From positions 1 to 54,578 of the forward strand of contig CADBDH010000015.1 of the NCBI GenBank assembly GCA_902793405.1: a stretch of DNA of 54,578 nt, in the 5' to 3' direction. Source of the stretch: an uncultured Bacteroidales bacterium. GTDB lineage: Bacteria > Bacteroidota > Bacteroidia > Bacteroidales > Muribaculaceae. A program made the translations under genes and the position numbers. The notes beneath the pieces are model-generated. The model was not told the DNA's origin, searched no databases, and saw only the letters and a program-made list of their open reading frames with translations. Every line of letters starts with the position of its first letter. Position 1 is the first letter of the stretch. This document shows, piece after piece, positions 10,442 through 49,787 of the stretch.

Positions 10442-10526
10442 CGGGTCGAAACCAACAAACTGTAATATACATACAACATAGACTTTAACAACTTTTTTGT
10501 TTACTAAATTATACCATTATTCGCTT

Positions 10527-13913: not shown

Positions 13914-13945
13914 CAGCGCTAGGCATAGCATAGATTAAGCCGTTA

Positions 13946-13978
13946 CAGGGCACCTTTCTCATGAGAGAAGGTGCCCTG
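13946..13978 (+). terminator. Terminator of first C10 protease gene
   Basis: CAGGGCACCTT (13946-13956) pairs with AAGGTGCCCTG (13968-13978), extended inward by CTC/GAG with one bulge, and followed by TTTGG. The same hairpin recurs after the next paralogue. Confidence 0.8.
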
Positions 13979-14063
13979 TTTGGTATATTTATGAGTAATG
14001 ACCACTAGTCTTGCAGTTTATAAGCTAATGATGTACTTTTTGTGATAATTGCTTGGAAATATT

Positions 14064-14094
14064 TTTGTCGTTCGTGACGGTTTGCTTAACTTTG
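14064..14094 (+). promoter_or_regulatory. Promoter of second C10 protease gene
   Basis: TTTG at 14064-14067, 19 nt, TAACTTTG at 14087-14094. The downstream leader resembles that of the first protease gene. Confidence 0.85.
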
Positions 14095-14173
14095 CGGGGC
14101 AAAACCAAGAAACTGCCATTTGGGCGCAACATAGACCATAACATTATTTTATATTAATTACCATTATTCGCTT

Positions 14174-17665: not shown

Positions 17666-17697
17666 CAGCGCCAGGTTTAGCATAAATTAAGCCGTTG

Positions 17698-17730
17698 CAG
17701 GGCACCTTTCTGTTGAGGGAAGGTGCCCTG
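17698..17730 (+). terminator. Terminator of second C10 protease gene
   Basis: CAGGGCACCTT pairs with AAGGTGCCCTG (17698-17708 with 17720-17730). It is a near copy of the hairpin at 13946-13978. The T-run that follows is poor. Confidence 0.7.
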
Positions 17731-17813
17731 CTCGGTTGCTATGGCTTTTAGTTGTGAACTTCGCATGGATTGGTTGAGCGAAACGTTATTTTAAGTGAAA
17801 GAAACGGGAAAAA

Positions 17814-17845
17814 TTTGGATTATAACCTTTGGAGTTGTAAATTTG
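17814..17845 (+). promoter_or_regulatory. Promoter of third C10 protease gene
   Basis: TTTG at 17814-17817, 20 nt, TAAATTTG at 17838-17845, 35 nt upstream of the start codon. The leader is shorter than, and unlike, that of the two preceding paralogues. Confidence 0.85.
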
Positions 17846-17880
17846 CACGTTTTTTGAAATAATCGTTTAATTAATTTTAT

Positions 17881-33894: not shown

Positions 33895-34198
33895 GGAATC
33901 GGGGGAGAAATCCCGAGGACGATAACAAGCATTCGCTATTATTTCGCGCATAGCTAAGAGCGTCGGAAACTCTATTTAGGTATAACAAGCACGGAAATAA
34001 TATGTGACAGGTGAGCCGTATATGGACATCTGTGAAGTAAATATAGCAATGCTCACGCTTGGCGTGATGCATTCATTATTCACTTCCAGAGGTACCATCC
34101 GACGTCACCTCTTGCTATGCGCAATAAAGAATCATCACGCTTTCTTTTTGCGCATTGGCGTGATTGATAGTCGATTGCAACTTAAAGACTATCAATCT
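33895..34198 (+). ncRNA. Candidate structured leader RNA of the methyltransferase/DUF262 module
   Basis: About 300 nt between the promoter and the ATG at 34199, without a convincing ORF. Visible pairings are: GGGA-GAAA-TCCC (33903-33914, a GNRA-type loop); ATTATTTC (33938-33945) with GAAATAAT (33994-34001); a hairpin at 34048-34073; ATGCGCAA (34117-34124) with TTGCGCAT (34148-34155); ATCACGC (34134-34140) with GCGTGAT (34158-34164); and an 11-bp perfect stem, 34162-34172 with 34187-34197, ending one base before the ATG. The last two share bases 34162-34164 and so compete. TAACAAGCA occurs twice, exactly 60 nt apart (33923, 33983). No known RNA class is recognised with confidence. Confidence 0.5.
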
Positions 34199-35311
34199 AT
34201 GGCGAACAAAAACTTACATGCCGCTAAGACGGCCAAGAAAGACGAGTTTTACACTCAAATGAGCGACATCGAGAGGGAATTGCAACACTACTGGCAGCAC
34301 TTCCGTGGCAAGACGATCCTGTGCAACTGCGATGATCCCTACGAGAGCAATTTCTTTAAGTATTTTGCCCTGCGTTTCAACCAACTGGGGCTAAAGAAGC
34401 TTATTTGCACCTGCTACAATGGTTCACCCGTCCAGGGCAATGAACTGATGATAGACTGGGGCGACTTTACCGAGGAACCCAAGAAAATCGCCTACAAGGT
34501 TGAGATTACCGAGGTACGCGACATGAACGGCGATGGCGCCGTTGACTTGAGCGATGTGCAATACCTCTTGCAAAACGATAAAAACGTCCTTTCTATTCTG
34601 AAAACAGGTGATTTCCGTGACCCCGAATGTACCGAACTGCTCAAACAGGCCGATATTGTTGTCACCAACCCACCATTCTCATTATTCCGCGAGTATATCG
34701 CCCAACTTATGGGATATGATAAAAAATTCTTGATTATAGGACATCAAAACGCAATTACATATAGAGAAGTGTTTCCTCTAATTAAAGAAAATCGTGTCTG
34801 GCTTGGATATGGTTTTAAAGGCGGTGCTGCTCATTTCTTTTCTCCGTATGAAGATATTGCAACGGCTGGTGATCACAAAAAAGACATGATTCGTGTATCA
34901 GGTGTCAATTGGTTCACAAATCTAGAAATACCGAAGCGCAACGAAAGCATGGATTTGGTTTGTCATTATTCACCTGACGAATATCCAACCTATCATAACT
35001 ATAACGCAATAAATGTAAACAAAACTTCAGACGTTCCATGCGACTATGAGGGTATAATTGGAGTTCCTATTACTTTTTTAGACAAATATAATCCCGAACA
35101 ATTTGACATCATTTGGCGTGGAGGCGATATTGAATGGGCAGAAAAAGAGTGTTCATTCTATACACCTCCAACGAAAGAAGAAGCTGAAAGGTTCAAAAAA
35201 CAAGATAGAACTTGGAGAATACAGAATCCATATTTAATTGATAAAAATGGCAATGCCAAAGTGGTTTATCAAAGAATTTTCATCCAGAACAAACATCCTA
35301 AGAAGCTATGA
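34199..35311 (+). CDS. EcoRI-type adenine-specific DNA methyltransferase (mosaic gene)
   Basis: 370 residues from ATG 34199 (MANKNLHAAKTAKKDEFYTQ). Upstream in-frame sequence lies in the leader and has no coding character. It belongs to the EcoRI methylase family of N6-adenine methyltransferases: DEFYTQMSDIERELQHYW, NCDDPYESNFFKYFA, and catalytic motif IV VVTNPPFSLFREY (about residues 156-168). An insert just before motif IV (about 105-120) contains an EF-hand/dockerin-like loop, DMNGDGAVDLSDV. Base composition changes inside the gene. Sample 60-nt lines from 34261-34500 are 43-57% GC, and those sampled from 34741-35220 are 32-40%. The stop overlaps the next start (ATGA at 35308-35311). Its role is probably protection within a restriction-like module. 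Confidence 0.88.
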   Translation: MANKNLHAAKTAKKDEFYTQMSDIERELQHYWQHFRGKTILCNCDDPYESNFFKYFALRFNQLGLKKLICTCYNGSPVQGNELMIDWGDFTEEPKKIAYKVEITEVRDMNGDGAVDLSDVQYLLQNDKNVLSILKTGDFRDPECTELLKQADIVVTNPPFSLFREYIAQLMGYDKKFLIIGHQNAITYREVFPLIKENRVWLGYGFKGGAAHFFSPYEDIATAGDHKKDMIRVSGVNWFTNLEIPKRNESMDLVCHYSPDEYPTYHNYNAINVNKTSDVPCDYEGIIGVPITFLDKYNPEQFDIIWRGGDIEWAEKECSFYTPPTKEEAERFKKQDRTWRIQNPYLIDKNGNAKVVYQRIFIQNKHPKKL

Positions 35312-36432
35312 TGACGATAGAACAAATCAGTGTGACCGTTAGGGAAATTACCCAAGGCTATGTGAATAATGAGGAACTGGGTGTGCGCGGTTATAACGGA
35401 CTGTTGGATATTCGTCCACCCTATCAACGCGAATTCATCTACAACGACAAGGAGCAACAGGCCGTCATCAACACGGTGCTGCACGGCTATCCGTTAAATG
35501 TGATGTATTGGGTGAAGCGCAGCGACGATGCCGAGTGCCCCTACGAGGTGATGGACGGCCAGCAGCGTACGCTGTCGCTGTGCGAATATGTGGCAGGGAA
35601 ATTCAGCTTTGAGTTCAAGAACTTCTTCAACCAGCCGGCTGACATCCAAAAGAAGATTTTGGATTACCCGCTCACGGTGTATGTTTGTGAGGGTGAGGCG
35701 AGCGAAAAACTAGAATGGTTCAAGACCATTAACATTGCCGGCAAGCCGTTAAATGAGCAAGAAATCCGCAACGCCATCTATGCCGGGCCGTTTGTGAGCG
35801 ATGCTAAGCGCCATTTCTCCAAGAGCAACTGCGGTGCCTACAAATTGGGCAAGGATCTGGTAGATGGCACGCCCATTCGCCAAGACTTCCTGAAAAAGGC
35901 CCTAGAATGGATGGCCGATCACGAAAAGCGCGAGGGCAAGGCGCAAAACCCCGTGAGCTATATGGCGCAACACCAGCATGACCCTAACTCCAACAACCTG
36001 TGGACCTATTTCCAGAACGTGCTGAACTGGGCCATCACCAACTTTGAGATGAAGAAGTTCAAGAAAATCATGAAAGGGCTGGACTGGGCCTTGTATTACG
36101 ATGAATTCCACGGCAAGACACTCGACACCGTGGCACTGGCCAAACGCATTTCGGAACTGATGCGTGACAGTGAAATCCAAAAGCCGAAAGGCATCATCCC
36201 CTACGTACTCACGGGCGATGAGCGTCATCTGGACCTGCGTGCCTTCCCTGAGGATATCAAGCTGGCCGTGTGGGAAAAGCAGGGGCACATCTGCCCCTTG
36301 TGTGGCAAAGAGTTTGACCTGGAATTCATGGAAGGTGACCACATCAAGCCATGGCGTGAGGGCGGCCGCACCGTTATCGAGAACTGCCAGATGCTGTGCC
36401 GCGACTGCAACCGCCACAAGGGCGCGAAGTAA
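35308..36432 (+). CDS. DUF262 domain protein with C-terminal HNH nuclease
   Basis: 374 residues. The N-terminal DUF262 (ParB-like/GmrS-like) domain shows YQREFIYNDKEQQAVI and the diagnostic VMDGQQRTLSL (about residues 70-80). The C-terminus is an HNH nuclease: CPLCGKEFDLEFMEGDHIKPWREGG and NCQMLCRDCNRHKG, with two CxxC zinc ligand pairs and the catalytic DH. DUF262-HNH proteins are common in phage defence (GmrSD, BrxU types), where the DUF262 part hydrolyses nucleotides and the HNH part cuts DNA. Its start overlaps the methyltransferase stop by 4 nt, so the two are translationally coupled and probably act together. Base composition is that of the host, unlike the 3' half of the methyltransferase. 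Confidence 0.88.
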   Translation: MMTIEQISVTVREITQGYVNNEELGVRGYNGLLDIRPPYQREFIYNDKEQQAVINTVLHGYPLNVMYWVKRSDDAECPYEVMDGQQRTLSLCEYVAGKFSFEFKNFFNQPADIQKKILDYPLTVYVCEGEASEKLEWFKTINIAGKPLNEQEIRNAIYAGPFVSDAKRHFSKSNCGAYKLGKDLVDGTPIRQDFLKKALEWMADHEKREGKAQNPVSYMAQHQHDPNSNNLWTYFQNVLNWAITNFEMKKFKKIMKGLDWALYYDEFHGKTLDTVALAKRISELMRDSEIQKPKGIIPYVLTGDERHLDLRAFPEDIKLAVWEKQGHICPLCGKEFDLEFMEGDHIKPWREGGRTVIENCQMLCRDCNRHKGAK

Positions 36433-36523: not shown

Positions 36524-37084
36524 TCAGCGCTCGGTGCAGGCGGTGTAGATGAAGCGGGGGTGAATGGTGGTGGTGAAGCGGTATTTGCTGATGTCGGAGA
36601 GCATTCCTGCCATATCGCCCTCGTTATCGTCGCCCGTGAGCTTGTAGAGGCTCTCCTTCATTGTCCACAGGCGGGTGAAGGCAACCTCGGGCTGGGCCGA
36701 GGCCTCGATTTCACGCATTTCGTCATCGTTCATCACACGGCGGGCGACCTCGGCGCTGTAATGCCCGGTGGTCTCGATGTCGATGCCGACGGGATGGTCA
36801 CTTACGGCCACAGCCACTGCCTCGTGGCAGTGGCTAAGGCTGAAGTGGATATCGGGATGACCCTGCAGCAGCGGCTTGCCCTTGTCGTCATGGGTGAAGA
36901 CGGGCATCTCGTCGATGCCGTATTCCAGCATCAAGGCACGCTGCAGCAGGCGGTAGGCGGCCAGGCACAGGCGCTGGTCACGCTCCTGGCGGTAGCGCAG
37001 GGCATAGTCACGCCGCTGCTGGCTCACTGCCGCCAGTGCCTCCCGCAGGTCAAAATCGTCGATATGGTCATCGATATAGATCAC
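36524..37084 (-). CDS. 4'-phosphopantetheinyl transferase (Sfp-type superfamily)
   Basis: 186 residues. It transfers phosphopantetheine from coenzyme A to carrier-protein serines. Family motifs are readable: SLSHCHEAVAVAVSDHPVGIDIE (metal aspartate and glutamate) and the late FTRLWTMKESLYKLTG (W-x-x-K-E-S-x-x-K). The start is GTG at 37084, overlapping the MATE stop (GTGA). As last gene of the NRPS operon it is the obvious enzyme to activate the two carrier domains of the synthetase at 38419-45672. The family also contains fatty-acid AcpS-like enzymes, but the position argues for secondary metabolism. Confidence 0.92.
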   Translation of the reverse strand: MIYIDDHIDDFDLREALAAVSQQRRDYALRYRQERDQRLCLAAYRLLQRALMLEYGIDEMPVFTHDDKGKPLLQGHPDIHFSLSHCHEAVAVAVSDHPVGIDIETTGHYSAEVARRVMNDDEMREIEASAQPEVAFTRLWTMKESLYKLTGDDNEGDMAGMLSDISKYRFTTTIHPRFIYTACTER

Positions 37085-38412
37085 TGTTTCAATTCAAAGC
37101 GCAGGTGCAGCGACTTGTGCATGACATAGATGGCTATGGCCTCAATCAAGTATGCGATGAGGTAGCTGTGCCAGAGGTAATCGGGCAGTATCCGCGCCAT
37201 GAGCCACAACACAGGAATGACCGTGAGCGACAGGGCAAACGAGATGAACAGTGCCATGTGATGGTGGCTATAGAGCTTATAGACAATCATCAGCACATAG
37301 ATGTAGCAGAAGGGGATGAAGCTCAACGCGAACACGCGCAGGGCCTGGTTGCTCTGGACCAGCATCTCGGGCTCGTCGCAGCCAAACAGCCGTGCGATGC
37401 CCTGCGGGTAAACCCACACGAGCAGGCAGGTCACTGCCATGGCCACGGAGATGAAGCGGAAACCTTTCTTGATAACGGTGCGCACGCCCTGGTTGTCGCC
37501 CTTGCCCACCTGAATGGCTCCCAGCGACTGCAGCGTCTGGCATGTGCCCGACAGGAACAGGTTATAGACCTGCAAGAGGTTCATGCACAGGGCAAACACA
37601 AAGATACCCGTGCGGCCCGTTGTGGACAGCACGATGCGGTTGGCGCTGAACAGGAGCAGCGTCAGGCAGATCGAGGCCACAGCCAGCGGCGCTCCCTGCG
37701 AGATGATGCGTTTCCACGTCGCGGCAAGTCCATCGGTAGATAAGACGGGAACAAGACGGCGGTTCTCGGGCTTGCGCCAGTGTGAGAGCAGGATGGCGAT
37801 ACCCACCAGATGTCCCACGACGGTCGCAGCCGACGAACCCGTGATGCCCCAGCCAAACCACTGGATGAAAATGATATCCAGAAACAAGTTCACGGCATTG
37901 TCGACGATAACCGCCATTGATACCAGTCGCGGACTGCCGTCAACACCCACCATGGTCGAGAGACCCCACATGAGGATGAAGGCCGGGCAACCGATGAGCA
38001 GCACCTGCATGTAGTTGCGGGCCAGCGGCAGAATCTGCTCGTTATCGCACAGCATCCTTGCCGTCTGCTGCGGGAATATCATGCCGCCGACAATCGACAG
38101 CACCAGTCCCAACCCCACAGTCAGCGACAGCGAGCGGGTGAAGAATCGCCGGGCGTCATCTGTCTTCTTCTGTCCCAGGGCATAAGCCACCAGCATTCCT
38201 GCACCCGCATTGATGAGCAGGTGCAGGGTAAAGATAAACTGGGTGATGGGCGTGGACAGGTTGATGGCGCTCACACCATCCTCGCTGATGAGGTTGCCCA
38301 CGATGATACCGTCTACCACGGTACCCAGGCAGCCCGAGAGGGCTACCAGGATATAGGCCCACAGATAACGGTAGAATTGAGCGTTGATATTGTCTTGCTC
38401 TTGCAGTTTCAT
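37081..38412 (-). CDS. MATE-family multidrug/metabolite exporter
   Basis: 443 residues from ATG 38412, preferred to the TTG at 38418. Twelve hydrophobic segments in two similar halves are typical of MATE transporters. Recognisable stretches include VDGIIVGNLISEDGVSAINLSTPI near residue 30 and LFLSGTCQTLQSLGAIQVGKGDNQG at the start of the second half. It lies 6 nt after the NRPS stop and overlaps the phosphopantetheinyl transferase start. The tight packing suggests it exports the NRPS product across the inner membrane. The ion that drives it is unknown. Confidence 0.92.
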   Translation of the reverse strand: MKLQEQDNINAQFYRYLWAYILVALSGCLGTVVDGIIVGNLISEDGVSAINLSTPITQFIFTLHLLINAGAGMLVAYALGQKKTDDARRFFTRSLSLTVGLGLVLSIVGGMIFPQQTARMLCDNEQILPLARNYMQVLLIGCPAFILMWGLSTMVGVDGSPRLVSMAVIVDNAVNLFLDIIFIQWFGWGITGSSAATVVGHLVGIAILLSHWRKPENRRLVPVLSTDGLAATWKRIISQGAPLAVASICLTLLLFSANRIVLSTTGRTGIFVFALCMNLLQVYNLFLSGTCQTLQSLGAIQVGKGDNQGVRTVIKKGFRFISVAMAVTCLLVWVYPQGIARLFGCDEPEMLVQSNQALRVFALSFIPFCYIYVLMIVYKLYSHHHMALFISFALSLTVIPVLWLMARILPDYLWHSYLIAYLIEAIAIYVMHKSLHLRFELKQ

Positions 38413-38418
38413 TGTCAA

Positions 38419-41400
38419 TTACATGTCAAAGAATCCGAGTGTGCCGATGGCGGTGAGCATGCGCTCCACATAGTCCCATGACGTGGGCGACCACGCGAAG
38501 CCCAAGCGGTAGAGCACCTGGGTCGTGTAGTTGTTGTCGCGCTTCACGTCGGCGGTCTTTTGGCCATGGGCCATATCCTGATAGGCCAGCAGCGACGACA
38601 TCTGGCGCGCCTTCTGCGGGTCGCTCTTGGCTTCCTCCATGGCTGCCTCAAACTCTTCCTGCTCAACAAAGCGCACACCGTTGCCGACGGTGTCAAGTCC
38701 CATGAGCACGTCGCCCAGGAACTGGCCGTGGATGTTATAGGGATGGAACACGGTGCACTCCTTGGGAGTGGAGCTCAGCAGCACGATGGCGCGGGCCACC
38801 TCGTTGATGGGCGAGAATTCCACCTGCTGGTTACGCATGCTGTAGGGGCAACAGCCCAGCATGTTATAGACCTTGATGCGGCCCATAAACGAGTTGGTCG
38901 AGAAGTTGGCCTGGAACTCGCCGTCGGTCGAGCGGGCGGCCAGGTTGCCCACACGCATGATCTTGGCATTGAGGCCGTGCAGGGCCACAGCGTTGAGTAT
39001 CATGCGCTCGGCAATGAACTTGGAATAGATGTACTTGTTGCCCAGGAACTGGCCCATGTACAGTCGTTGCTCGGTAAAGATCTCGCTCTTGATCTCACCG
39101 GCCCACAGGCCGCGCGTGCTCGCTGTGGACACGTGCACGAGCTTGGCGCCCGTCTTGACGCAGTAGTCCACGCAACGTTGTGCGCCGCCAATGTTCACGT
39201 CCTCGATTTCGGTACCCTCGCTGAAGTGCTTCACGATGGCCGCGCAGTTGAAGATGGTATCAACCTGCAGACCCTCGGCAAAGTCACTCGTCACGTCACC
39301 CAGCACGATGTGCAGGCGCTTGCCGAACAAGTCCTTGAAGGCATCCGAGAAGTAGTAGAACAGCAGCGTGCGCAGGCGGTTGGCAGCAGCCTCCTCGTTC
39401 TTGCCGCGCACCAGGCAGTAGATGTTCTCGGCATCCGAGTCGATGAGTTCGCGCAGGATGTGGATACCCAGGTAGCCCGTGGCGCCTGTCAGCAGCACAT
39501 TGCCCAACTGCTGGCGCTCACCCTTGCGGAAGATGTTCAACGTGTTCTTCTGCAACAGGTTGTTGATGGCCGTGTAGTCAAATCCGGTAATCTCGGCATC
39601 GCCCTCGTTGACGGCCTCGCCGGTAATCAGGCGGGCCAGCTTGCGGGGCGTCGGGTTGGCAAACACGTCGCCATAGGCAACATGCAGCCCTTGTTTGTCG
39701 GCCTCGATGATGACGCGGGTCACAACCAGCGAGGTGCCGCCCAACTCAAAGAAGTTGTCGGTCGCACCCACCTTGTCCATCTGCAGGATGCCTGCAAAGA
39801 TGTCGCACAAGGTGCGCTCGGTGTCATTGGCGGGCTCTACATAGGCCGAACTGATGGCCAATTCGGGCTCGGGCAGTGCCTTGACGTCGGTCTTGCCGTT
39901 GGGTGTCATGGGCATCTCCTTGAGTTGCAGGTAGGCCGTGGGCACCATGTATTGTGTCAGGCTCTTGGAAATCTCGGCCTTGAGTGCATCGGGTGCAATC
40001 TCATGGTCGGCGGTATAATAGGCACACAGGTGCTCCTTGTCATTGATCTTGCGGATCAGGATAACCACCTTCTTCAGCCCCTCGACCTTGAGCATCACGT
40101 TCTCGATCTCGCCCAGCTCGATGCGCAGGCCGCGCAGCTTGATCTGGTGGTCGGTACGGCCCAGGATCACGACATTGCCGTCGGGGAGCCACTTGGCATA
40201 GTCGCCCGACTTGTAGATGCGGGTGCCGTGGTAGTCGACAAAGCGCTCACGGGTCATCTCGTCCAGGTTGTTGTAGCCATGGGCTACGCCGCGGCCGCCG
40301 ATGTAAAGTTCGCCCACGACGCCCACGGGCAGCTCGTTGCCGTCCTGGTCCACGATATACTCGATGACGTTCAGCTGCGGCTTGCCCACGGTGACGATGT
40401 CGGCGTTGGTCAATTCGCTGTTATTTGACGCCACGGTGATTTCGGTGGGACCGTAGCAGTTGAAGATGCGGGCCTTGGTCACCTTGCGCAGCTGTTGCAG
40501 CAGCTGGTCCGAGAATTTCTCGCCGCCGGCGCGCACGATGTTGATGCGGCTGATGGCGTCGCAGAAGTCTTCACTCGTCAGCCAGGTCATCCAGCGCGAC
40601 GGGGTACCCGACACCATGTTGACGTGCTCCTCGTTGATGAGGCGGGCCAGGTCGAGCGGGTTGTTGGCCTGTTCCTCGGTGGCGACGACGAGTGTCTTGC
40701 CGTTGAAGTAGGCCGTGCCAATGTCCTGCAGGGCAGCGTCAAACGAGATGGTCGTCACGCTCATGATGCGCTTGGCATCGGTCAACACGCCGTTGGCAAA
40801 CACATTGGCAGGATGGCCGTACAGGTAGTTGCAGATGCCGCGGTGATGCAGCATCACGCCCTTGGGACGGCCGGTCGAACCACTGGTATAAATCAGGTAG
40901 GCCAGGTCGTTGGGGGTGATGTCGGGAGCGTGATAGTCGTCATGGGCGGCAATCAGGTCCTCAACATTGATGGCCTTGTCGGCGGGCACGGTATCCATGC
41001 GGTCGGCGGTGGTGATGATGTAGCGGGCCTCGCTGTCCTCAAGAATGAGTTTCACGCGGTCGGCGGGATATTCGGGGTCGCAGGGGATATAGGCGGCACC
41101 CGACTTCAGCACGCCGAACAGGGCGAGAATCAGTCGGCTCGTCCTCGGCAGCAGCAGGGCCACGCGGTCGCGCTCATGCACGCCACGGTTCTGCAGTGCG
41201 GCGGCGATGCGTGTCGTCACCTCGTCCATCTCCTTATAGGTGAACCTGCCGTCGATGGCAACCAGCGCCTCGTGGTCGGGCTGTGTTTGGGCAAAGTGGC
41301 CGATGCACTCGTGGAAGAAGGTGAACGGTGCATCACCCGTCGCCGTCTGGCGCAGGTGGCTCAGCTCCTCTTCCTGGTTCTCGCTCACGATTGACAACTG

Positions 41401-44400
41401 GCGCAGTTTGGCCTGCGGCTGCTCCATCATCCTGTTGGCCACGGCCACGATGCTCTCGGCCAGGCCACGGCCCACGCGCTCGCTGTAAATCGAGTCGTCA
41501 TACTCGACAACAACGCCGCAGTTCTCGATCTTGACGTTGATCTTGAACTTGGGCACATTCAGCTCCAGCAATTCCTGACCGATGGGCTGATCGTTCACGG
41601 TATATTGCGAGAGTACGCCCACTTGATAAGCGTAGGCTATCGCGGGACGGAAACCATAGTCGGTTGCGATGCGGGCAAAGGGGTAGTCCTCGTGACGCAG
41701 CGTCTGGTCAAACGTGTCGCTGGCATGTTTCAGGAATTCGCTCACGGTCACGTCGTCGATGCTCATGCCCAGGGCGAGCGTGTTGACAAACATACCCACC
41801 GTGTCGGCAATCTTGAGGTTGCTGCGGCCGCTGCTCACGGTGCACAGATAGACGTCGCGGTTGTTGGTGTAGCGCGATACCACATAGGCTGTTGCTCCCA
41901 GGAACAGGTGGGCTGGCGTGATTTCCTCCTGGCGGCAGAAGTCGGCGGCACGTTCCAGGTCGACGGGGCAGACTGCCTCGCCGATGAAGCCTTGCTCGTC
42001 GGTCTTGGGCAGGTCGGCGGGAATCTCGCTGGCGCCCTCACAGGTCTGCAGCCGCTCGGCAAAGAACTGCTGTGAGGCCTTGAATTGGTCAGTTTCCTCG
42101 GCGGCCTTCTGGTCGTCGACGAAGTCCAAATAGGTATAGGACTCCTTCTCCACTTCCTTACCCTCGAGCGCGGCATTGAGCTGGCGGATGAACAGGTCGG
42201 CCGAGCCGCCGTCAAATACCAGGTGGTGCATATCCAGCAGCAGGTGGAGTCCTGTGACTGTCTTAACGATTTCGGCGCGGTACAGCGGGGGCTTCTGCAG
42301 ATTGAAGGGACGCACAAACTCCCTCTTGTATTTCGCCAGTTCCTCTTCGCTCATCTCGGTGATGTTCACCTCGACGGGAACGCTGTCCTCGGTCGTCTGG
42401 ATGATGGTGTCACCCTCGGTAGTGAAGTGGACGCTGAGTTCGGGATGTGCCTCAATCACGCGCTTCACGACGTCGGCCAGGTGGTTGGCGTCGGTTCCTT
42501 CGGGATAGGTGAGCAGATAGGGAATGTTATAGATGGTCGAAGCGGGATTCTTCAGGCAATCGAAATAGACACCTGTCTGGGCATAGGACAGCGGTGCGCT
42601 GGTCTTGGCCACAGTATCTTTTTCTTGAGCGGTCTCTTCGGCGGGTTTGCTGCCACCCTCGAGCCACATTCTCAGGATGTCGTTCTCTATCGACTGGATG
42701 GTACCGGATTTCACCAGACTCTTGGAGTCGAGCGTCACGCCATAGCGTTTGTTGACCTGAACGGCCAGCTTGATGGCCGAGATAGAGGTCAGTCCGGCAT
42801 AACCCAGTATGGTCGTCACACCGAATTCCTTGTTGTTGACGATGTCGGCGACAATCTGGTGCAGTTCCTGTTCCAGCACGTTCATGGGCACGTTGCTCTC
42901 TTCGACGGCAGCAGCCTTCTTCTCGGGCTTGGGCAGGGCGCGCTTGTTCACCTTCTGGTTCTGGTTCAAGGGGATGGCGTCGATCTGCATGGTCACGGCA
43001 GGCACCATGTAAGGCGGCTTCTGGTCCATGATGAAGTTGTTCAATGCATCGATGTCGATGGTCTCATCGCTCACGATGTAGGCAGCGATAAACTTGCCGC
43101 CACCCTCGTCGTCAAAGGCCTGTACCGTAGCGTCCTTGATGCCGGGGAACTCGCGAATGACGCTCTCGACCTCCTTGAGCTCGATGCGGAAACCGCGAAT
43201 CTTGACCTGGCCGTCACGGCGTCCCACAAACTGGATGTCGCCCGACGGCAAGTAACGGACGATGTCGCCCGTGCGATAAACGCGGTTGTATTTTCCCTCG
43301 CTGGTGAACGGGTTGGGGATAAAGACTTCGGCGGTCTTCTCGGGGCGGTTCAGATAGCCGCGGCTCACCTGGGAGCCGGCTACCCACAATTCGCCGGCCG
43401 CACCCACGGGCAGGCGGTGGCCCTGCGGGTCGACGATATACAGGCGTATGTTCTTCGGCGCTTTGCCAATGGGAATCTCCTTCATCTTCTTGTCCACCAG
43501 ATAATAGGTGATGAAGACCGTTGACTCGGTGGGACCGTACAGGTTGAAGAACTTGATGCCCTGCGGGGGCGTTATCGATGCCAGCTTCTCGCCGCCGGTC
43601 GAGAGATAATGCAAGGAGTGGTTCTCGACACTTGTCGCAAACTGGTAGCACACCTGCGTAGTCATGAACGAGTGGGTGATGCCGTTCTGCTCAAAGTATT
43701 CGTTGAGGGCGATAAGGTCCAGACGCAGTTCCTCAGGAACGATATAGACGGTTGCTCCGCTGGTGAGCGCGGGGTACGTGTCCATCATGTTGGCGTCAAA
43801 GCCGTAGCTGGCATAGGCCGCAATCTTGCAGCCTGCCTTGAGGTCAAACATCTGATGGTACCAGTGGCAGAAGGCCACAAGATTGGCGTGGGTCAGCTGG
43901 CAGCCCTTGGGCACACCTGTCGAACCCGACGTATAAAGCAGGATAAACAGTTGGTCGGGCTTGATGTCCACCTGGGGCGCTGCAGCAGCGGGCAGGCCCA
44001 TGATATCCTTGGTCAGCAGCACCTCGCCCTGGTACTCGTCAACGATGGGACGCAGTTCCTCGTCGGCGATAAGCAGCTTGGCGCTGGCATCCTGCATCAT
44101 GAAGTTCAGGCGCTCCTTGGGATAACTCGGGTCGAGCGGCTGATAACCGCAACCGGCCTTGAGCGCACCCAGCGAGGCGATAGGCATCCACTCGCAGCGG
44201 GGAATGATGACCGACACCACGTCCTCGGCACCCAGGCCCTTGCCGACGATATAGGCGGCAATGCGGTCGCTGATTTCATCAACCTGGGCATAGGTGAACT
44301 GCTTGTCCATATATACGACGGCTATTGCGTCGGGCGTGGCCTTGGCCTGCTGGCGGAATAGCGAGACGATGGTCTGGCTGTCGTCATACTCCAGTTCGCC

Positions 44401-45672
44401 AGGGTTAAAGCTGTCGAGGGTAGCCACCTGGTCGGCTGTGGCAATGTCGATGTCACGCAGGTATTCCTGGGTGATGAAACCCTCGAGCACGGCCTCATAG
44501 CTCTCCAAAATCTGGGCAACGAGCTCTTGCGAGTATTCGTTGGCTTTGTATTCGGCTTCGATCTCTATCTTGCCGTCGTTGATGAAGGCCTTTAGGTAGA
44601 ACGATTCTTCGAGCGTGTTGTTGGCAATTCTGACCATCTCCATAGGCTTGCCGTCTATCGTCTGGACGTCAAGCACATTGCCGTGCCAAGCAAAGATGGA
44701 GTTGCTCTGCAGGTTCAGGTCCGTCATCAGGTCGGCATAGGAGTAGGTATCGTGCTCGCGGCACCCGCTCATCTGGTCCTGTCCTTGCTGCAGCAGGTCG
44801 AGCACGGTGGTTTCGTTGGTGAATTTGGCATAGACCGGCAGGGTCTTGACCGTCATTCCTAACGAGCGGTTGAAGCGTTTGTCGGTGCGGCCGTTATAGA
44901 TGGTGTTGAACAGGCTCTCCTGCTCATTGTTGAACTTGGCCAGCAGGAAGGCATAGGCTGTGGTGAACAATGTGCTCTTGAACACACCGTTCTTTTTGCA
45001 GTATTCATCCACACGGCCCAGGTCTACCGACAGGGTGCGCAGCAATTGGCCCTCGCGATACTCGGGGTCTTCCAGGTCGGGCACAAACTGGGTGAAGGTG
45101 TCGCCACAGTCAAAGTTGGCGGCAAACCACTTCTTGGCTTCATCATAGGCGGGAGTCTTGCGCTTGGCGGCTTCGTCGGTGGCCACTTCCATCATCGTCA
45201 ACTCTTCGGGGGCAATGGGCTCGCCTCGATAAGCCTTGTCGATGTCTTGCATCAGGATCTGGAACGATGCGCCGTCCATGATGATGTGGTGAAAGTCGAC
45301 CATGAAGTAATAATGCTCCTGGTCGCGCAACAGCCTGAAGCGGAACAGTCGGTCGCCGTAGATGTTGAACGGCTCTACGAACTGGGCTTTTTCCTGTTCG
45401 ATGTCTTGGATGTCTTCGATGTTGAGCGACCATTGCTCATTGGCCATGTCGAGCGTCTGTACCGGCTCTCCGTCTTCGCCCAGCTCGATGCGGGTGAACA
45501 GCGTGGGGTGAGCCTTAAAGGCCGTCTCAACGGCCTCGAGCAGTCGTTGGCCATCCAGCGAACGGTCAAGCACATAAACAAAAGGTAGATTATAGCATGG
45601 TTCTCCCTGGTGGTTTGCACATTCCACATAGATTCCGAACTGGGAGGTTGATAAGGGTGCTGTAAGTTTCAT
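38419..45672 (-). CDS. Two-module nonribosomal peptide synthetase with terminal reductase (C-A-T-C-A-T-R)
   Basis: 2417 residues. C1 (about 1-430) has active-site HHIIMDG at H128-H129. A1 (about 450-930) has YTSGSTGVPKG at 580 and YGPTEST. T1 carries the phosphopantetheine site at S963 in an unusual AGLTSIS setting. C2 (about 1025-1460) has HHLVFDG at 1149. A2 (about 1490-1930) has YTSGSTGRPKG at 1595. T2 has LGGTSL with S1981. The reductase (about 2055-2417) has the NADPH loop GATGYLG at 2063 and the catalytic YIYSK at Y2214/K2218. No epimerase or thioesterase is present. A starter condensation domain plus terminal reductase predicts an N-acyl dipeptide released as aldehyde or alcohol. It is followed by exporter and phosphopantetheinyl transferase genes and preceded by an outer-membrane protein and regulatory genes. 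Confidence 0.95.
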   Translation of the reverse strand: MKLTAPLSTSQFGIYVECANHQGEPCYNLPFVYVLDRSLDGQRLLEAVETAFKAHPTLFTRIELGEDGEPVQTLDMANEQWSLNIEDIQDIEQEKAQFVEPFNIYGDRLFRFRLLRDQEHYYFMVDFHHIIMDGASFQILMQDIDKAYRGEPIAPEELTMMEVATDEAAKRKTPAYDEAKKWFAANFDCGDTFTQFVPDLEDPEYREGQLLRTLSVDLGRVDEYCKKNGVFKSTLFTTAYAFLLAKFNNEQESLFNTIYNGRTDKRFNRSLGMTVKTLPVYAKFTNETTVLDLLQQGQDQMSGCREHDTYSYADLMTDLNLQSNSIFAWHGNVLDVQTIDGKPMEMVRIANNTLEESFYLKAFINDGKIEIEAEYKANEYSQELVAQILESYEAVLEGFITQEYLRDIDIATADQVATLDSFNPGELEYDDSQTIVSLFRQQAKATPDAIAVVYMDKQFTYAQVDEISDRIAAYIVGKGLGAEDVVSVIIPRCEWMPIASLGALKAGCGYQPLDPSYPKERLNFMMQDASAKLLIADEELRPIVDEYQGEVLLTKDIMGLPAAAAPQVDIKPDQLFILLYTSGSTGVPKGCQLTHANLVAFCHWYHQMFDLKAGCKIAAYASYGFDANMMDTYPALTSGATVYIVPEELRLDLIALNEYFEQNGITHSFMTTQVCYQFATSVENHSLHYLSTGGEKLASITPPQGIKFFNLYGPTESTVFITYYLVDKKMKEIPIGKAPKNIRLYIVDPQGHRLPVGAAGELWVAGSQVSRGYLNRPEKTAEVFIPNPFTSEGKYNRVYRTGDIVRYLPSGDIQFVGRRDGQVKIRGFRIELKEVESVIREFPGIKDATVQAFDDEGGGKFIAAYIVSDETIDIDALNNFIMDQKPPYMVPAVTMQIDAIPLNQNQKVNKRALPKPEKKAAAVEESNVPMNVLEQELHQIVADIVNNKEFGVTTILGYAGLTSISAIKLAVQVNKRYGVTLDSKSLVKSGTIQSIENDILRMWLEGGSKPAEETAQEKDTVAKTSAPLSYAQTGVYFDCLKNPASTIYNIPYLLTYPEGTDANHLADVVKRVIEAHPELSVHFTTEGDTIIQTTEDSVPVEVNITEMSEEELAKYKREFVRPFNLQKPPLYRAEIVKTVTGLHLLLDMHHLVFDGGSADLFIRQLNAALEGKEVEKESYTYLDFVDDQKAAEETDQFKASQQFFAERLQTCEGASEIPADLPKTDEQGFIGEAVCPVDLERAADFCRQEEITPAHLFLGATAYVVSRYTNNRDVYLCTVSSGRSNLKIADTVGMFVNTLALGMSIDDVTVSEFLKHASDTFDQTLRHEDYPFARIATDYGFRPAIAYAYQVGVLSQYTVNDQPIGQELLELNVPKFKINVKIENCGVVVEYDDSIYSERVGRGLAESIVAVANRMMEQPQAKLRQLSIVSENQEEELSHLRQTATGDAPFTFFHECIGHFAQTQPDHEALVAIDGRFTYKEMDEVTTRIAAALQNRGVHERDRVALLLPRTSRLILALFGVLKSGAAYIPCDPEYPADRVKLILEDSEARYIITTADRMDTVPADKAINVEDLIAAHDDYHAPDITPNDLAYLIYTSGSTGRPKGVMLHHRGICNYLYGHPANVFANGVLTDAKRIMSVTTISFDAALQDIGTAYFNGKTLVVATEEQANNPLDLARLINEEHVNMVSGTPSRWMTWLTSEDFCDAISRINIVRAGGEKFSDQLLQQLRKVTKARIFNCYGPTEITVASNNSELTNADIVTVGKPQLNVIEYIVDQDGNELPVGVVGELYIGGRGVAHGYNNLDEMTRERFVDYHGTRIYKSGDYAKWLPDGNVVILGRTDHQIKLRGLRIELGEIENVMLKVEGLKKVVILIRKINDKEHLCAYYTADHEIAPDALKAEISKSLTQYMVPTAYLQLKEMPMTPNGKTDVKALPEPELAISSAYVEPANDTERTLCDIFAGILQMDKVGATDNFFELGGTSLVVTRVIIEADKQGLHVAYGDVFANPTPRKLARLITGEAVNEGDAEITGFDYTAINNLLQKNTLNIFRKGERQQLGNVLLTGATGYLGIHILRELIDSDAENIYCLVRGKNEEAAANRLRTLLFYYFSDAFKDLFGKRLHIVLGDVTSDFAEGLQVDTIFNCAAIVKHFSEGTEIEDVNIGGAQRCVDYCVKTGAKLVHVSTASTRGLWAGEIKSEIFTEQRLYMGQFLGNKYIYSKFIAERMILNAVALHGLNAKIMRVGNLAARSTDGEFQANFSTNSFMGRIKVYNMLGCCPYSMRNQQVEFSPINEVARAIVLLSSTPKECTVFHPYNIHGQFLGDVLMGLDTVGNGVRFVEQEEFEAAMEEAKSDPQKARQMSSLLAYQDMAHGQKTADVKRDNNYTTQVLYRLGFAWSPTSWDYVERMLTAIGTLGFFDM

Positions 45673-45723
45673 ATTATGGTTACTTTTTGGTTTTAGGCGT
45701 TAAAAGAAATATTAGAAACTAGC

Positions 45724-47082
45724 CTACCATTTGGTGGTGAATATGCGCGGGTTGACCACAAGCGTGATATATCCCCAGCGCAGGCTGTTATTGGTACTGG
45801 AACGTTTCAGGCGCTCCATGGTATCGCCGCCCCACATGAACGAGGCTCCTGCCGACACATTCACGTCACGGCTGATGGCATAGGCTGCCTGGAACTCTAT
45901 CTCGTGACCCAATGTCTTATCCATGTCACTAAGGTCGGTGGCAATGGCAAGGTAGTGATAGCTCGCATTGAGCATCAAGTTCTTTAACGGATTGTAAGTG
46001 CCGCCGATATAAGCATTCTGCAAGCCTGGAGTGAATCCGTGATGATAGGCGCTCACATAGAAGAAGTCCATAGCGCCGTAGAATTTGTGGTGGGAGCCAT
46101 AGACTGTGCTGAAGCCCTTGATGACATCGTGATGCACCATACCAATGTTGTCACCGGTTGGCACGGCAAAATACTTGTCACCACTCAAGTAGTCATAACC
46201 CGCTATTACATTGAACTTGGGCGACGGAATATAGGTGAGTTTTCCACTGGCCATCCAGGCCTGGATTTTAACACCATGCTCATTTTTGCCAAACTGGTTA
46301 TAGTATGATGCCTCGGCCTTCCAGTGTTTGGGTTGGAATGACACATAGGTACCTGCCAAATGCTGGAACCAGGTCTTATCAGGATTGTTTTCCAGCTCGC
46401 TCTGCATGCCGATGTTCATAAACAGCAGTGAAGCCCCCAACGGCAAACGCGGCAAGTCATAGTGGTACCACGCCGTTTGCATGGTTTTGTAGGGCTGACC
46501 GCCGTTAACATAGTAGGAACCGCCGGTTTCCATCACATTGGCATTCTGGTTATAGGCCAGAATGATATGGGCTTTGTGGCCATGTCCCTCATATCCCAGG
46601 CGCAAGATGTCGTGTGACGAAGAGGCCATTGCCCAATCGTCCGAGCCGATGATGCGCTCGTCGTCATAGTTCAGGGCCACACGACCCACTTGGGCAAATA
46701 TCCCGGAATGTGTGGCCATCTTCACCCATGCTTCATGCAGGTTGAAGCCTCCTTTGCCCGCTTGTCCCCACACACCAGAGTGCTGAGGCGTGACGCGGGC
46801 TTCGAGCCAGTCGCGTTTGAAGTTGATGGGCAGGCGTGTGCGGCTGAGCAAGAAATTGGACTTAGGAACCTTAACATCCTCAACTTCTTCCTCTTTCTCA
46901 ACGGGTGCCGACGGCATGCCGCCATATCGTGACTCGCCGCGACCCAGAAACTGCAGGTCAATGCTGAACTCGTTTTTGGGAACGGGAATGGTATCGGTCG
47001 AGGGCTGACCCGTTGCCAGGAGCGCAGGTATGGCTATGGCTGCCAGCAGCCATAGCCTGATATTCATGCGTTTCATGCTCAT
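45724..47082 (-). CDS. Outer-membrane beta-barrel protein (alginate-export/porin-like)
   Basis: 452 residues from ATG 47082 (MSMKRMNIRLWLLAAIAIPALLATGQ, signal peptide), 7 nt after the STAS stop; a TTG at 47103 inside the STAS gene is rejected. After a short linker the protein is a series of amphipathic strands with aromatic girdles (for example WLEARVTPQHSGVW and AEASYYNQFG) ending in tryptophan (NPRIFTTKW), as in outer-membrane barrels. It resembles the alginate-export/porin group in general shape, but I do not assign a substrate. Its place between the regulators and the NRPS, 51 nt before the NRPS start with no promoter in between, suggests a part in product release or uptake. Confidence 0.75.
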   Translation of the reverse strand: MSMKRMNIRLWLLAAIAIPALLATGQPSTDTIPVPKNEFSIDLQFLGRGESRYGGMPSAPVEKEEEVEDVKVPKSNFLLSRTRLPINFKRDWLEARVTPQHSGVWGQAGKGGFNLHEAWVKMATHSGIFAQVGRVALNYDDERIIGSDDWAMASSSHDILRLGYEGHGHKAHIILAYNQNANVMETGGSYYVNGGQPYKTMQTAWYHYDLPRLPLGASLLFMNIGMQSELENNPDKTWFQHLAGTYVSFQPKHWKAEASYYNQFGKNEHGVKIQAWMASGKLTYIPSPKFNVIAGYDYLSGDKYFAVPTGDNIGMVHHDVIKGFSTVYGSHHKFYGAMDFFYVSAYHHGFTPGLQNAYIGGTYNPLKNLMLNASYHYLAIATDLSDMDKTLGHEIEFQAAYAISRDVNVSAGASFMWGGDTMERLKRSSTNNSLRWGYITLVVNPRIFTTKW

Positions 47083-47089
47083 GGATCGT

Positions 47090-47392
47090 TTACTCAAACT
47101 CAAACAGGTTGATGAACCCAGTGATTTGGAACACGTTCTTGATGTCGTCGTTCACGTTGCGCAGTGTGACGGTCTTGCCCTTGGCCTTGGTCTTCTTGAG
47201 CACGTCGAGCAGGATGCGCAGGCCGCTAGATGCGATGTACTCCAGTTCTTTACATTCAAATACCACATTCTTGCTGATCGATTCGGTAACAGGCTTCAGC
47301 GTTGCATCTGCCTCAATCGCCGCAGCTGTATCAAATGAGCCAATCAGCGTGATAATCGTTTTCTCGTCTAATTCTTGAATTGTAGTTTTCAT
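47090..47392 (-). CDS. STAS-domain anti-sigma-factor antagonist (RsbV-like)
   Basis: 100 residues, a single STAS domain. It begins MKTTIQELDEKTIITLIGSFD, and the conserved phosphorylation loop is LEYIASSGLRILLDVL, with the switch serine at about residue 55-56. In partner switching, an RsbW-like kinase phosphorylates this serine and a PP2C phosphatase removes the phosphate. Both of those activities seem to be present in the protein encoded 27 nt upstream. No RpoF/SigB-type sigma factor is in the window, so the downstream target is open. Confidence 0.9.
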   Translation of the reverse strand: MKTTIQELDEKTIITLIGSFDTAAAIEADATLKPVTESISKNVVFECKELEYIASSGLRILLDVLKKTKAKGKTVTLRNVNDDIKNVFQITGFINLFEFE

Positions 47393-47419
47393 TTTATTTA
47401 TAGTTTTAAATGGTTAATA

Positions 47420-49633
47420 TCATTGTTTGTTGTTATAATTCTTCATGATCGTGAGCACGTTTTTGCCGTCGATGCGCTCATAGTTGACGCTGTCCATCAG
47501 CGACTGCACGAGCAGGATACCTAACCCGCCGATGGGACGCTCCTCGGCGCTGAGTGTTGTGTCGGCTTCACTCTTCATGGTCGGGTCAAAGGCTTTACCC
47601 TCGTCGATAATGATGAACTTGATGCCATTATCGGTACCCTTGGCAGTAATGGTGACATCTCCTTGTGTGCCAATAGGATAGGCGTAGCTCATCACGTTAA
47701 CGACGGCCTCCTCGACAGCCAGCATCAGTTGTGACGATAAAGATGACTCAAGGTTTAATCGTTCAGACACCGATTTGACGAAATTATTGAGTTCAGGAAC
47801 TTGATGCACATCGTTACTCAATTTAATCGTCTCGTCGAGCACTGTATGCTCTTCGTGATGGTGGTAATGGACACAAAGCATGGTCAGGTCATCGCTCTGT
47901 TGTGCTCCGTTGGCAAAGCGCAAGGCTCCTTCATGCTGGGATTCCATCAGTTGTGACGGGGAGACCTTGCCTTGTTCCAGATTGGCCTGAGCCGTTTCAA
48001 TGATGCGCTGCAGGCCAAACAGGTTGTGATTGGTGTCGGCCATCTCGGTCAAGCCGTCGGTATAGAGCAGCAGGGACGACTCATGGGGTAGTTGCTCTTC
48101 TTGCAGCAGATAGGTGGTGTCGCTGAATAATCCCAATGGCAAGTTGGCGTTCACTTGCAGGGTTTTTACCTCATGGTCAATAATCAGCGGTGCGTCATGG
48201 CCGGCATTGCAGTAGCGCAGGCGACCCGTGGGCAGGTCCAGCACACCGATAAACATGGTGACAAACATATTGGCATCATTGCCCTCACACGCTGCCTCGT
48301 TGATGGCATGCATGATGCGCGAGGGATTGCTCTCGTTCCGGGACAAACTGCGGAACAGGGAATGCACTACCGCCATCACCAGCGATGACGGCACGCCCTT
48401 GCCACTCACATCACCGATGCAGAAGAACAGTTTCTCGTCGCGGATGAAATAGTCATACAGATCGCCACCCACTTCCAGCGCCGAGACCTGTTTACCGCTC
48501 ACGTCGACGTCGGGTCTTGAAATGTCGGTTTGGGGTAGCATCTCGCTCTGAATCTTTTGGGCAATGTGCAACTCACTGTCGGTGCGCTCCTTGTTCAGCC
48601 TGGATTCATGCAACCGTTTCACGTATTGGTGGACGCGGTACAGAATGAATCCTAACAGGGAGAAAGCTCCAAGCATGAGTAACAGCATGTTACGGCGCAT
48701 GTCTTTGAGCTTGGCGAAAACCTCGTTGTCATAGCACACCATCACCACCTGCCAGTGGGGGTGGCCCTTCATGAAGGCATGGTATGCGTATCCCGTGCCC
48801 TTCTCTTTGCTTTTGAACGTGATGACCTTGCTGCGGCATGAACTGCTGAACTCGCGCTGGCAGGTGCTGTCGTTTATCATTTTCACTACAGCGTCCACAT
48901 CACTTTGTTGGGTATGGCTGGAGTCGGGTTTGGAGATGAGTTTGCCGTCCTCGGTGAGTAGCAGAAAAAAGGTGGAGGGGTAATTGTGTCTGGTGTTCAA
49001 GGTATCGATGATGCCCTCGGTCGACAGGTCGATACCGAATGTGCCAACGATTTTGCCGTTTTCGTCGGTGAGGGGCATGGCATAGGTCGTCACTACCTTG
49101 CCGCAACCATCGACATCCAGATAGGGGTCGCTCCACGAGGGAGTGTTGTTCAAGACGGCTTGCTGGTAAAACTCGCGTTGAGTGTAGTCATGCAACTCAT
49201 TGGCAACTTGCTTGGTATAGATACTGTCACCACGACGGATGGCCACTGGCTCAAACAGCCGTGGACGATCGGGATAGTACTCTGGAGTAAAAGCCGTAAA
49301 ACAAGTCATCACGTCTTGATTGGATGTAACAAGTCGTTTGAGGATGCGGGGAATGCTATCGGGTTTCTTGAGTTGGTGTTGGATAGGCCATAGATAGTTG
49401 CGCACCATTGCCTCGTGGGACTTGAGCATACTCTTGACAACCACTGCCTTCAAGGTCATCTCGTTCTCGGCGCGGATATCAAGACCTTCCTCAACCATGT
49501 TGTGGGCATAGTTGTATTGAGCAAGCGATATGAGTTCGATAAGTGCACCAGCAAGCAGGATGAGGGCAATGGCCGATATGGACTTGCGGTAATGGCTCCA
49601 ATTGAATTTGTTAAACAGTTGTTTGAACGTCAT
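47420..49633 (-). CDS. Sensor PP2C phosphatase (RsbU/SpoIIE type) with fused RsbW-like ATPase domain
   Basis: 737 residues. A membrane segment (about 17-37), an extracytoplasmic Cache-type sensor (about 45-310; VVTTYAMPLTDENGKIVGTFGIDLS is typical), a second membrane segment (about 318-338) and a short helix lead to a SpoIIE/PP2C phosphatase domain (about 360-595). Metal-site stretches there are VGGDLYDY, GDVSGKGVPSSL and YTDGLTE. The C-terminal part (about 605-737) is a GHKL/HATPase domain like RsbW: LMLAVEEAVVNVMSYAY (N-box), DEGKAFDP and GGLGILLVQSL. Small-molecule binding outside would thus be turned into dephosphorylation and/or phosphorylation of the STAS protein. It is the first gene of the NRPS operon, with a -7 element at 49688-49695. 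Confidence 0.92.
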   Translation of the reverse strand: MTFKQLFNKFNWSHYRKSISAIALILLAGALIELISLAQYNYAHNMVEEGLDIRAENEMTLKAVVVKSMLKSHEAMVRNYLWPIQHQLKKPDSIPRILKRLVTSNQDVMTCFTAFTPEYYPDRPRLFEPVAIRRGDSIYTKQVANELHDYTQREFYQQAVLNNTPSWSDPYLDVDGCGKVVTTYAMPLTDENGKIVGTFGIDLSTEGIIDTLNTRHNYPSTFFLLLTEDGKLISKPDSSHTQQSDVDAVVKMINDSTCQREFSSSCRSKVITFKSKEKGTGYAYHAFMKGHPHWQVVMVCYDNEVFAKLKDMRRNMLLLMLGAFSLLGFILYRVHQYVKRLHESRLNKERTDSELHIAQKIQSEMLPQTDISRPDVDVSGKQVSALEVGGDLYDYFIRDEKLFFCIGDVSGKGVPSSLVMAVVHSLFRSLSRNESNPSRIMHAINEAACEGNDANMFVTMFIGVLDLPTGRLRYCNAGHDAPLIIDHEVKTLQVNANLPLGLFSDTTYLLQEEQLPHESSLLLYTDGLTEMADTNHNLFGLQRIIETAQANLEQGKVSPSQLMESQHEGALRFANGAQQSDDLTMLCVHYHHHEEHTVLDETIKLSNDVHQVPELNNFVKSVSERLNLESSLSSQLMLAVEEAVVNVMSYAYPIGTQGDVTITAKGTDNGIKFIIIDEGKAFDPTMKSEADTTLSAEERPIGGLGILLVQSLMDSVNYERIDGKNVLTIMKNYNNKQ

Positions 49634-49687: not shown

Positions 49688-49695
49688 CAAAGGTA
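49688..49695 (-). promoter_or_regulatory. -7 element of the NRPS operon
   Basis: TACCTTTG on the minus strand, 54 nt before the phosphatase start. The -33 region is AT-rich and lacks TTTG, so activation by a regulator is possible. No other promoter-like match was found in the gaps down to the NRPS gene. Confidence 0.55.
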
Positions 49696-49759
49696 TAAAT
49701 TTTTGATAAAATATATAATGTGTTTTGGAGTTAAAATAATTGCATTGTTAATAAAAATA

Positions 49760-49787
49760 ATAGGGCCGCCTGGATGAGCGACCCTAT
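49760..49787 (-). terminator. Terminator of typA
   Basis: ATAGGG (49760-49765) pairs with CCCTAT (49782-49787), extended inward by CGC/GCG with a one-base mismatch. On the minus strand it is followed by a T-rich run. Confidence 0.75.

Follow-up and report, generated by a model that had tools for sequence, protein, structure and literature searches.

A six-gene non-ribosomal peptide synthetase operon with a predicted partner-switching sensor in an uncultured Bacteroidales bacterium

Why should a phosphatase-kinase sensor and a STAS protein, components of the kind found in partner switches, be encoded in one predicted operon with a non-ribosomal peptide synthetase (NRPS)? The question is raised by contig CADBDH010000015.1 (GenBank assembly GCA_902793405.1) of an uncultured Bacteroidales bacterium of the Muribaculaceae, a draft assembly of 3.19 Mb in 72 contigs, from which a stretch of 54,578 nt (hereafter the window) was analysed. 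Six genes, all on the minus strand at positions 36524-49633 as re-read from the sequence, code in 5' to 3' order for a sensor (SpoIIE/HATPase), a STAS protein, a barrel-like outer-membrane protein, an NRPS, a MATE exporter and a 4'-phosphopantetheinyl transferase (PPTase). The HATPase_c_2 and STAS families are those which perform sigma-factor partner switching in Bacillus. The six-gene unit seems to make a small modified peptide and to export it, with a sensor switch of its own in control, and it is a real, conserved and self-contained system. Related NRPSs are found in 29 named loci, all from metagenome-assembled genomes or assemblies of uncultured isolates classed as Muribaculaceae, Prevotellaceae, Bacteroidaceae, Bacteroidales or Prevotella. 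Many of their titles name ruminant gut sites or animals, which makes the rumen the most likely setting.

Organisation and conservation of the operon

The sensor gene (47420-49633; 737 amino acids), assigned by Pfam, alignment and relatives in the PDB, is followed by those for the STAS protein (47090-47392; 100 amino acids; Pfam and TIGR00377), the outer-membrane protein (45724-47082 from its ATG, in a frame open from 47103), the NRPS (38419-45672; 2417 amino acids; Pfam and NCBIfam), the MATE exporter (37081-38412, ATG start) and the PPTase (36524-37084), the last of which starts with GTG and overlaps the MATE stop by 4 nt. With the chosen starts, the four preceding gaps measure 27, 7, 51 and 6 nt. 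The gene number, order, strand, gaps and domain families given in a preliminary description of this DNA are thus borne out by the sequence and by Pfam and NCBIfam. The search for the same order in other Bacteroidales which that description proposed recovers it, with short gaps, in 18 of the 29 named loci (the SpoIIE frame being split in L033) and, with one extra gene, in two more. The spacing, too, is conserved: the median gaps in the 18 loci are 33, -5, 27.5, 26.5 and 0.5 nt, as measured between alignment ends, which include neither stop codons nor exact starts, and with the SpoIIE-STAS gap taken from 17 of the 18. A STAS or SpoIIE gene lies near the NRPS in 27 of the 29, while L054 and L060 lack a regulator in the stretch examined.

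The MATE exporter and the PPTase match the Pfam families MatE (108.7 bits) and ACPS (48 bits), respectively. The outer-membrane protein scores 36.8 bits against the Alginate_exp family, for which the gathering threshold is 25.2, though no single stretch passed. Its signal peptide was recognised by eye, 20 aligned homologues share 41-90% identity with it, and a profile search yielded no PDB relative at E<=1.

Linkage of the switch and the NRPS

Linkage was assessed in 101 genomes of the genus as the presence of STAS (E<=1e-6) or SpoIIE (E<=1e-20) within 12 kb of the NRPS (E<=1e-80); fragmented NRPS matches were merged by hand, G076:C48 was excluded, a fragment at a contig end was taken to show presence, and pairs were counted per NRPS piece. 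The two-module NRPS is encoded in 83 of the 101 genomes and has a linked regulator in 73 of these (both STAS and SpoIIE in 68, STAS alone in four and SpoIIE alone in one), which is far from the situation, named in the preliminary description as one that would speak against it, of regulators and NRPS never being neighbours. Among the ten genomes without a linked regulator, seven have an NRPS piece at most about 70 bases from a contig end (G019, G026, G030, G068, G083, G085 and G116), two (G076 and G103) are assigned neither to this class nor to the truly unlinked one, and the last, G005, is weighed below. All 143 NRPS-regulator pairs share a strand and STAS lies upstream of the NRPS in 69 of 74 pairs; in 21 pairs the two are within 452 nt, so that no outer-membrane protein gene fits between. 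All 89 genomes with any NRPS match, long or short, carry SpoIIE or STAS, and ten of the 12 genomes without an NRPS match lack both regulators while two (G001 and G014) hold one (Fisher p 3e-12, ignoring relatedness).

The gene order varies around this association. The order STAS-OMP-MATE-SpoIIE-NRPS, where OMP denotes the outer-membrane protein, occurs in L042 and L059, STAS-MATE-SpoIIE-NRPS in L056, STAS-NRPS-SpoIIE in G004:C432 and G088:C50, and STAS-SpoIIE-NRPS-MATE::kinase in G090. STAS is directly upstream of the NRPS in G010 and G029, with SpoIIE-OMP on another contig, and in G022 the NRPS (frame split) is followed by SpoIIE with a kinase-like stretch and then by STAS. The linkage is therefore not one inherited block, and the association of switch and NRPS survives shuffling.

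At E<=1e-150, related NRPSs occur in seven of 393 sampled Bacteroidales genomes, that is, six besides the window's own. The statement that NRPSs are uncommon in gut Bacteroidales thus holds in the order-wide sample but not in the genus, where 83 of the 101 genomes encode one. The SpoIIE and STAS pair accompanies a related NRPS in genomes of two other Bacteroidales families (G457 and G366). As G457, outside the genus, holds a window-type cluster whose NRPS is 73% identical to that of the window (its SpoIIE being cut by the contig start), acquisition by horizontal transfer is suggested. A separate, short one-module NRPS of about 1436-1460 amino acids, whose similarity to the window NRPS lies in the final A, T and R domains, is encoded in 14 genomes of the genus (G011:C23, G007:C62 and 12 others, with only a 790-amino-acid frame in G026), and at none of these 14 loci is it linked to a regulator.

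The sensor and the STAS protein

A dCache/PDC domain, flanked by two membrane segments judged by eye, a SpoIIE (PP2C) domain and an RsbW-like HATPase_c_2 domain are joined in the single polypeptide of the sensor according to Pfam. The aspartates expected to bind metal in the PP2C domain (D391, D408, D526 and D581/D582) and the N-box and G-box residues of the kinase (E641/E642, N646, D677, G679, G703 and G705) are invariant in 25 aligned sensors. A profile search of the PDB returns Rv1364c, RsbW and PctA-type dCache receptors as relatives. Amino-acid binding by the dCache domain was considered in view of the last of these and set aside, as by eye the amino-acid-binding motif is not kept. Rv1364c (PDB 3ke6) resembles the window sensor in uniting PP2C and an RsbW-like kinase in one chain, but has no NRPS; it presumably has a different sensor and a fused STAS domain.

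The STAS protein matches its Pfam family with 53.7 bits and TIGR00377 above the cut-off, and the PDB relatives of the switch proteins include an anti-sigma-B antagonist. Its candidate phospho-acceptor, Ser55, is serine in all 57 distinct matches covering the site in 149 searched loci, 21 of the 79 matches having been left out for not covering it. The preceding residue, usually aspartate in STAS phospho-acceptor sites, is alanine in 43 and serine in 14 of the 57. Two further proteins were observed beside SpoIIE genes: a STAS domain fused to an APH phosphotransferase domain, adjoining a second SpoIIE-kinase sensor (L069 5783-6979, in G021), and an 820-amino-acid protein directly upstream of SpoIIE (L072 2014-4476, in G026) with a domain like the RNA polymerase alpha C-terminal domain and a sigma region 4 match under its cut-off.

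Exporter-kinase fusions

A 575-amino-acid MATE protein with a C-terminal HATPase_c_2 domain is encoded in G004:C33. Full-length MATE::HATPase matches occur in four of the 101 genomes of the genus (G004, G088, G087 and G090), each adjoining an NRPS, with Pfam having been run on the fusions of G004 and G090, and in one of 392 other Bacteroidales at E<=1e-40 (G366, of another family), where the operon reads MATE::kinase, a 3003-amino-acid NRPS, SpoIIE::kinase and STAS. The kinase motifs are kept in all five fusions (E494, N498, D525-G527 and G545 in the numbering of the first sequence). The linked SpoIIE phosphatase of G090 has no kinase domain by Pfam, which leaves the one on the exporter as the sole kinase domain identified there. 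In L116-L118 the MATE proteins have C-terminal tails that resemble decayed kinase domains by eye, with no Pfam kinase match, and no NRPS or SpoIIE homologue was matched in these stretches.

The NRPS and its predicted product

Two C, two A and two T domains and a terminal reductase (NAD_binding_4) are found in the NRPS by Pfam, an arrangement typical of dimodular synthetases with reductive release, and the HHxxxDG motif of both C domains and the YxxxK motif of the reductase are kept, as seen by eye in the translation. Dipeptide-aldehyde NRPSs of the gut were reportedly described by Guo et al. in 2017. The window NRPS is like the aureusimine synthetase AusA and these gut enzymes, in the passages describing them, in being dimodular with release by a reductase (PMC12153313, PMC12327764). 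It is unlike AusA, its best NCBIfam match, in having an extra first C domain and in scoring 1162.8 bits against an equivalog cut-off of 2500. Attempts to type the starter accepted by the first C domain through PDB matches did not settle the matter. In three loci a ligase-like gene follows the NRPS and precedes a divergent MATE gene (L034 17266-18615, L040 13973-15376 and L048 17278-18627), resembling PaaK/F390 synthetase in L040 and L048 and giving a weak AMP-binding match in L034 and L048; it may supply an acyl starter.

With the established position scheme for A domains, the specificity residues of the window NRPS read by alignment are DAMFLTLVF (A1) and DAQSVACVA (A2). Among 52 distinct NRPS sequences compared, 45, the window's included, share 67-100% identity; A2 is DAQS[V/C/A]ACVA in all 45 and A1 begins DAMFL in all 44 that cover the site, while three fusion-type NRPSs have DAGGIALND and DMWTAQGAN. 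This uniformity, and the different residues of the fusion type, suggest that one product is probably conserved across most of the genus and that the same kind of switch would serve other products elsewhere.

Promoter and terminator signals

A candidate promoter, identified by pattern match and alignment, precedes the sensor gene on the minus strand at 49688-49722 (CACATTA-20 nt-TACCTTTG) and is the sole match to the pattern CACATTAN{17,21}TAYCTTTG in its own genome. The TAnnTTTG half, which we take to be the Bacteroidetes-type -7 element, precedes SpoIIE in 19 of the 21 pieces aligned, with the CACATTA box presumably sitting about where a TTTG is expected. In 1.2 Mb of loci, CACATTA at a fitting distance occurs in nine loci including the window (L062 repeating the window), always before SpoIIE. 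As a signal exclusive to the operon the box was rejected, as only nine of 25 matches in the 101 genomes lie before SpoIIE and 16 elsewhere (reversed control, seven). The 16 other sites, for instance G092:C32:46519-46550, include several that are near-identical across genomes and perhaps precede one orthologous gene. A terminator-like hairpin of 11 pairs lies between typA and the operon (49760-49787, minus strand), a class of structure no commoner here than in shuffled sequence (13 found, 12.3 expected).

Neighbouring genes

Encoded in tandem on the plus strand at 10497-20109 are three C10 (streptopain-family) peptidases that have Spi inhibitor prodomains, match Ig-like domains and carry dockerin type I matches at the C-terminus, one of the latter slightly under its cut-off. 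Converging on the 3' end of the operon at 34004-36432 (plus strand) are an EcoRI-type adenine methylase gene and, overlapping it by 4 nt, that of a GmrSD_N/HNH protein, which likely constitute a restriction-modification pair. Rfam and tRNA scans of the window gave no matches.

Comparison with described systems

The combination of this switch with an NRPS was not recognised as described in the preliminary description. Among open-licence PMC full texts, one paper with the same gene company was found: in Methanobrevibacter ruminantium M1, a two-module NRPS lies amid two serine phosphatases, an anti-sigma factor antagonist and a MatE protein (mru_0066-0071), for which sensing, regulation and export are proposed (Leahy et al. 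2010, PMC2812497). The terminus of this NRPS is called a thioester reductase in the supplementary legend and a thioesterase in the main text of that paper. As in the window, a two-module NRPS with a first C domain, a STAS-type antagonist, phosphatases and MatE stand together; unlike the window, the host is an archaeon, its PPTase and a kinase lie in another cluster, and the passages on it mention neither the outer-membrane protein nor the exporter-kinase fusion of the Bacteroidales loci. The gene company as such was therefore reported in 2010, and what remains new relative to these passages are the outer-membrane protein, the sensor-phosphatase-kinase chain and the exporter-kinase fusion. As far as the literature searched shows, an arrangement of this kind was first noted in a rumen archaeon; the present system is a variant of it, and the most telling of its new features is the exporter-kinase fusion.

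In the relevant passage of a later transcriptome study of M. ruminantium, two MatE genes are listed as rising under lauric acid, together with the PPTase gene and mru_0351, which encodes the other NRPS (PMC5816558). A survey of rumen biosynthetic gene clusters counts 5,346 NRPS clusters, 934 of them in Bacteroidaceae, and mentions no partner-switch regulator in the passages on them (PMC8241843). The SypE and SypA proteins of Vibrio fischeri resemble the window in pairing a dual serine kinase/phosphatase with a STAS protein, which in its unphosphorylated state acts on a target yet to be found; as described there, SypE differs from the window sensor in being a response regulator, and the pair governs biofilm formation rather than an NRPS (PMC8256260).

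Proposed mechanism and alternatives

Domains, catalytic residues, linkage and fusions are read from the sequence; from these we infer the chemistry, the direction of signalling and a local output. The PPTase would activate the NRPS, which would join two amino acids (the first C domain perhaps having accepted an acyl starter beforehand) and release the product reductively as an aldehyde or alcohol. Passage over the inner membrane would fall to the MATE exporter, and at the outer membrane the barrel protein may assist. The dCache domain would read a periplasmic signal, the PP2C domain would strip the phosphate from Ser55 of the STAS protein and the HATPase domain would restore it, the resulting phospho-state acting on the exporter or the synthetase. 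We favour such a self-regulated unit of biosynthesis and export, in which the STAS phospho-state acts locally and not by freeing a sigma factor, though we stop just short of calling it probable; that the switch may act at export rather than through a sigma factor is suggested by the RsbW-like kinase fused to MATE in five genomes. More tentatively, the kinase of the SpoIIE/STAS switch may in some Bacteroidales be the C-terminal domain of the MATE protein that exports the NRPS product, STAS phosphorylation then linking sensing directly to synthesis and export with no sigma factor involved, and the window may carry the same kinase on its sensor.

A classical transcriptional switch, in which a sigma factor from elsewhere in the genome stays bound to the HATPase domain until the STAS protein frees it to turn on the operon promoter, would follow the behaviour of these families in Bacillus, RsbW and the anti-sigma-B antagonist being PDB relatives, and has in its favour the CACATTA box shared by nine loci including the window. 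We nevertheless hold it to be rather unlikely, as that box is also found away from SpoIIE, an exporter-fused kinase is an odd site for a sigma-factor trap, and Pfam and NCBIfam identify no sigma factor among the six genes, the rest of the genome not having been searched for one. The fusions would also suit an exporter-kinase that senses product export and adjusts STAS phosphorylation, the switch reporting flux rather than gating it, and so would the kinase-like MATE tails of L116-L118. These tails match no Pfam kinase model, however, the window kinase is on a periplasmic sensor while its MATE has none, and the full-length fusion is present in only four of 101 genomes of the genus; such feedback seems improbable.

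Several observations weigh against a self-regulated unit of synthesis and export. G005 is truly unlinked, its NRPS (flanks resolved) and its regulators being on different contigs, and in six genomes that have the short NRPS alone the regulators are present but not linked to it. In the stretches examined, G355 has a SpoIIE-kinase gene 418 nt beyond its NRPS but lacks a STAS match, and G152, G194 and G473 have related NRPSs and no partner-switch gene. Mutual exclusion of the kinase on SpoIIE and on MATE is ruled out by G366, which has both, and the fusion genomes are drafts, 67-89% complete, in which a separate kinase could still be encoded. The switch-linked NRPS of M. ruminantium, mru_0068, does not appear in the lauric-acid passage (PMC5816558). 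Furthermore, SpoIIE-STAS-OMP-PPT loci without NRPS and MATE between exist in G007, G014 and G019, and in further relatives SpoIIE-OMP lies away from the NRPS, so that the regulators and outer-membrane protein may serve something else too, such as the short NRPS elsewhere in G007 and G111. Such loci could even mean that SpoIIE, STAS and the outer-membrane protein form a separate envelope-signalling unit with which the NRPS merely shares an operon. This we consider very unlikely: G111 (L125 7366-10010) keeps open frames for SpoIIE and STAS and, between OMP and PPT, the remains of an NRPS start (about 52 codons) and of MATE (the C-terminal 191 residues), marking at least this NRPS-less locus as a deletion product, while elsewhere the regulator pair stays with the NRPS through rearrangements and is mostly absent where no NRPS is matched.

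If the self-regulated unit of biosynthesis and export is true, partner switching, which is best known from sporulation and stress, would also be at work in uncultured Bacteroidales of one rumen genus, devoted there to controlling how a natural product is made and exported, and it would have a counterpart in an archaeon of the rumen. Where the switch acts, a question that is open for STAS systems such as SypA, would be indicated by the way in which the kinase domain has moved between the sensor and the exporter.

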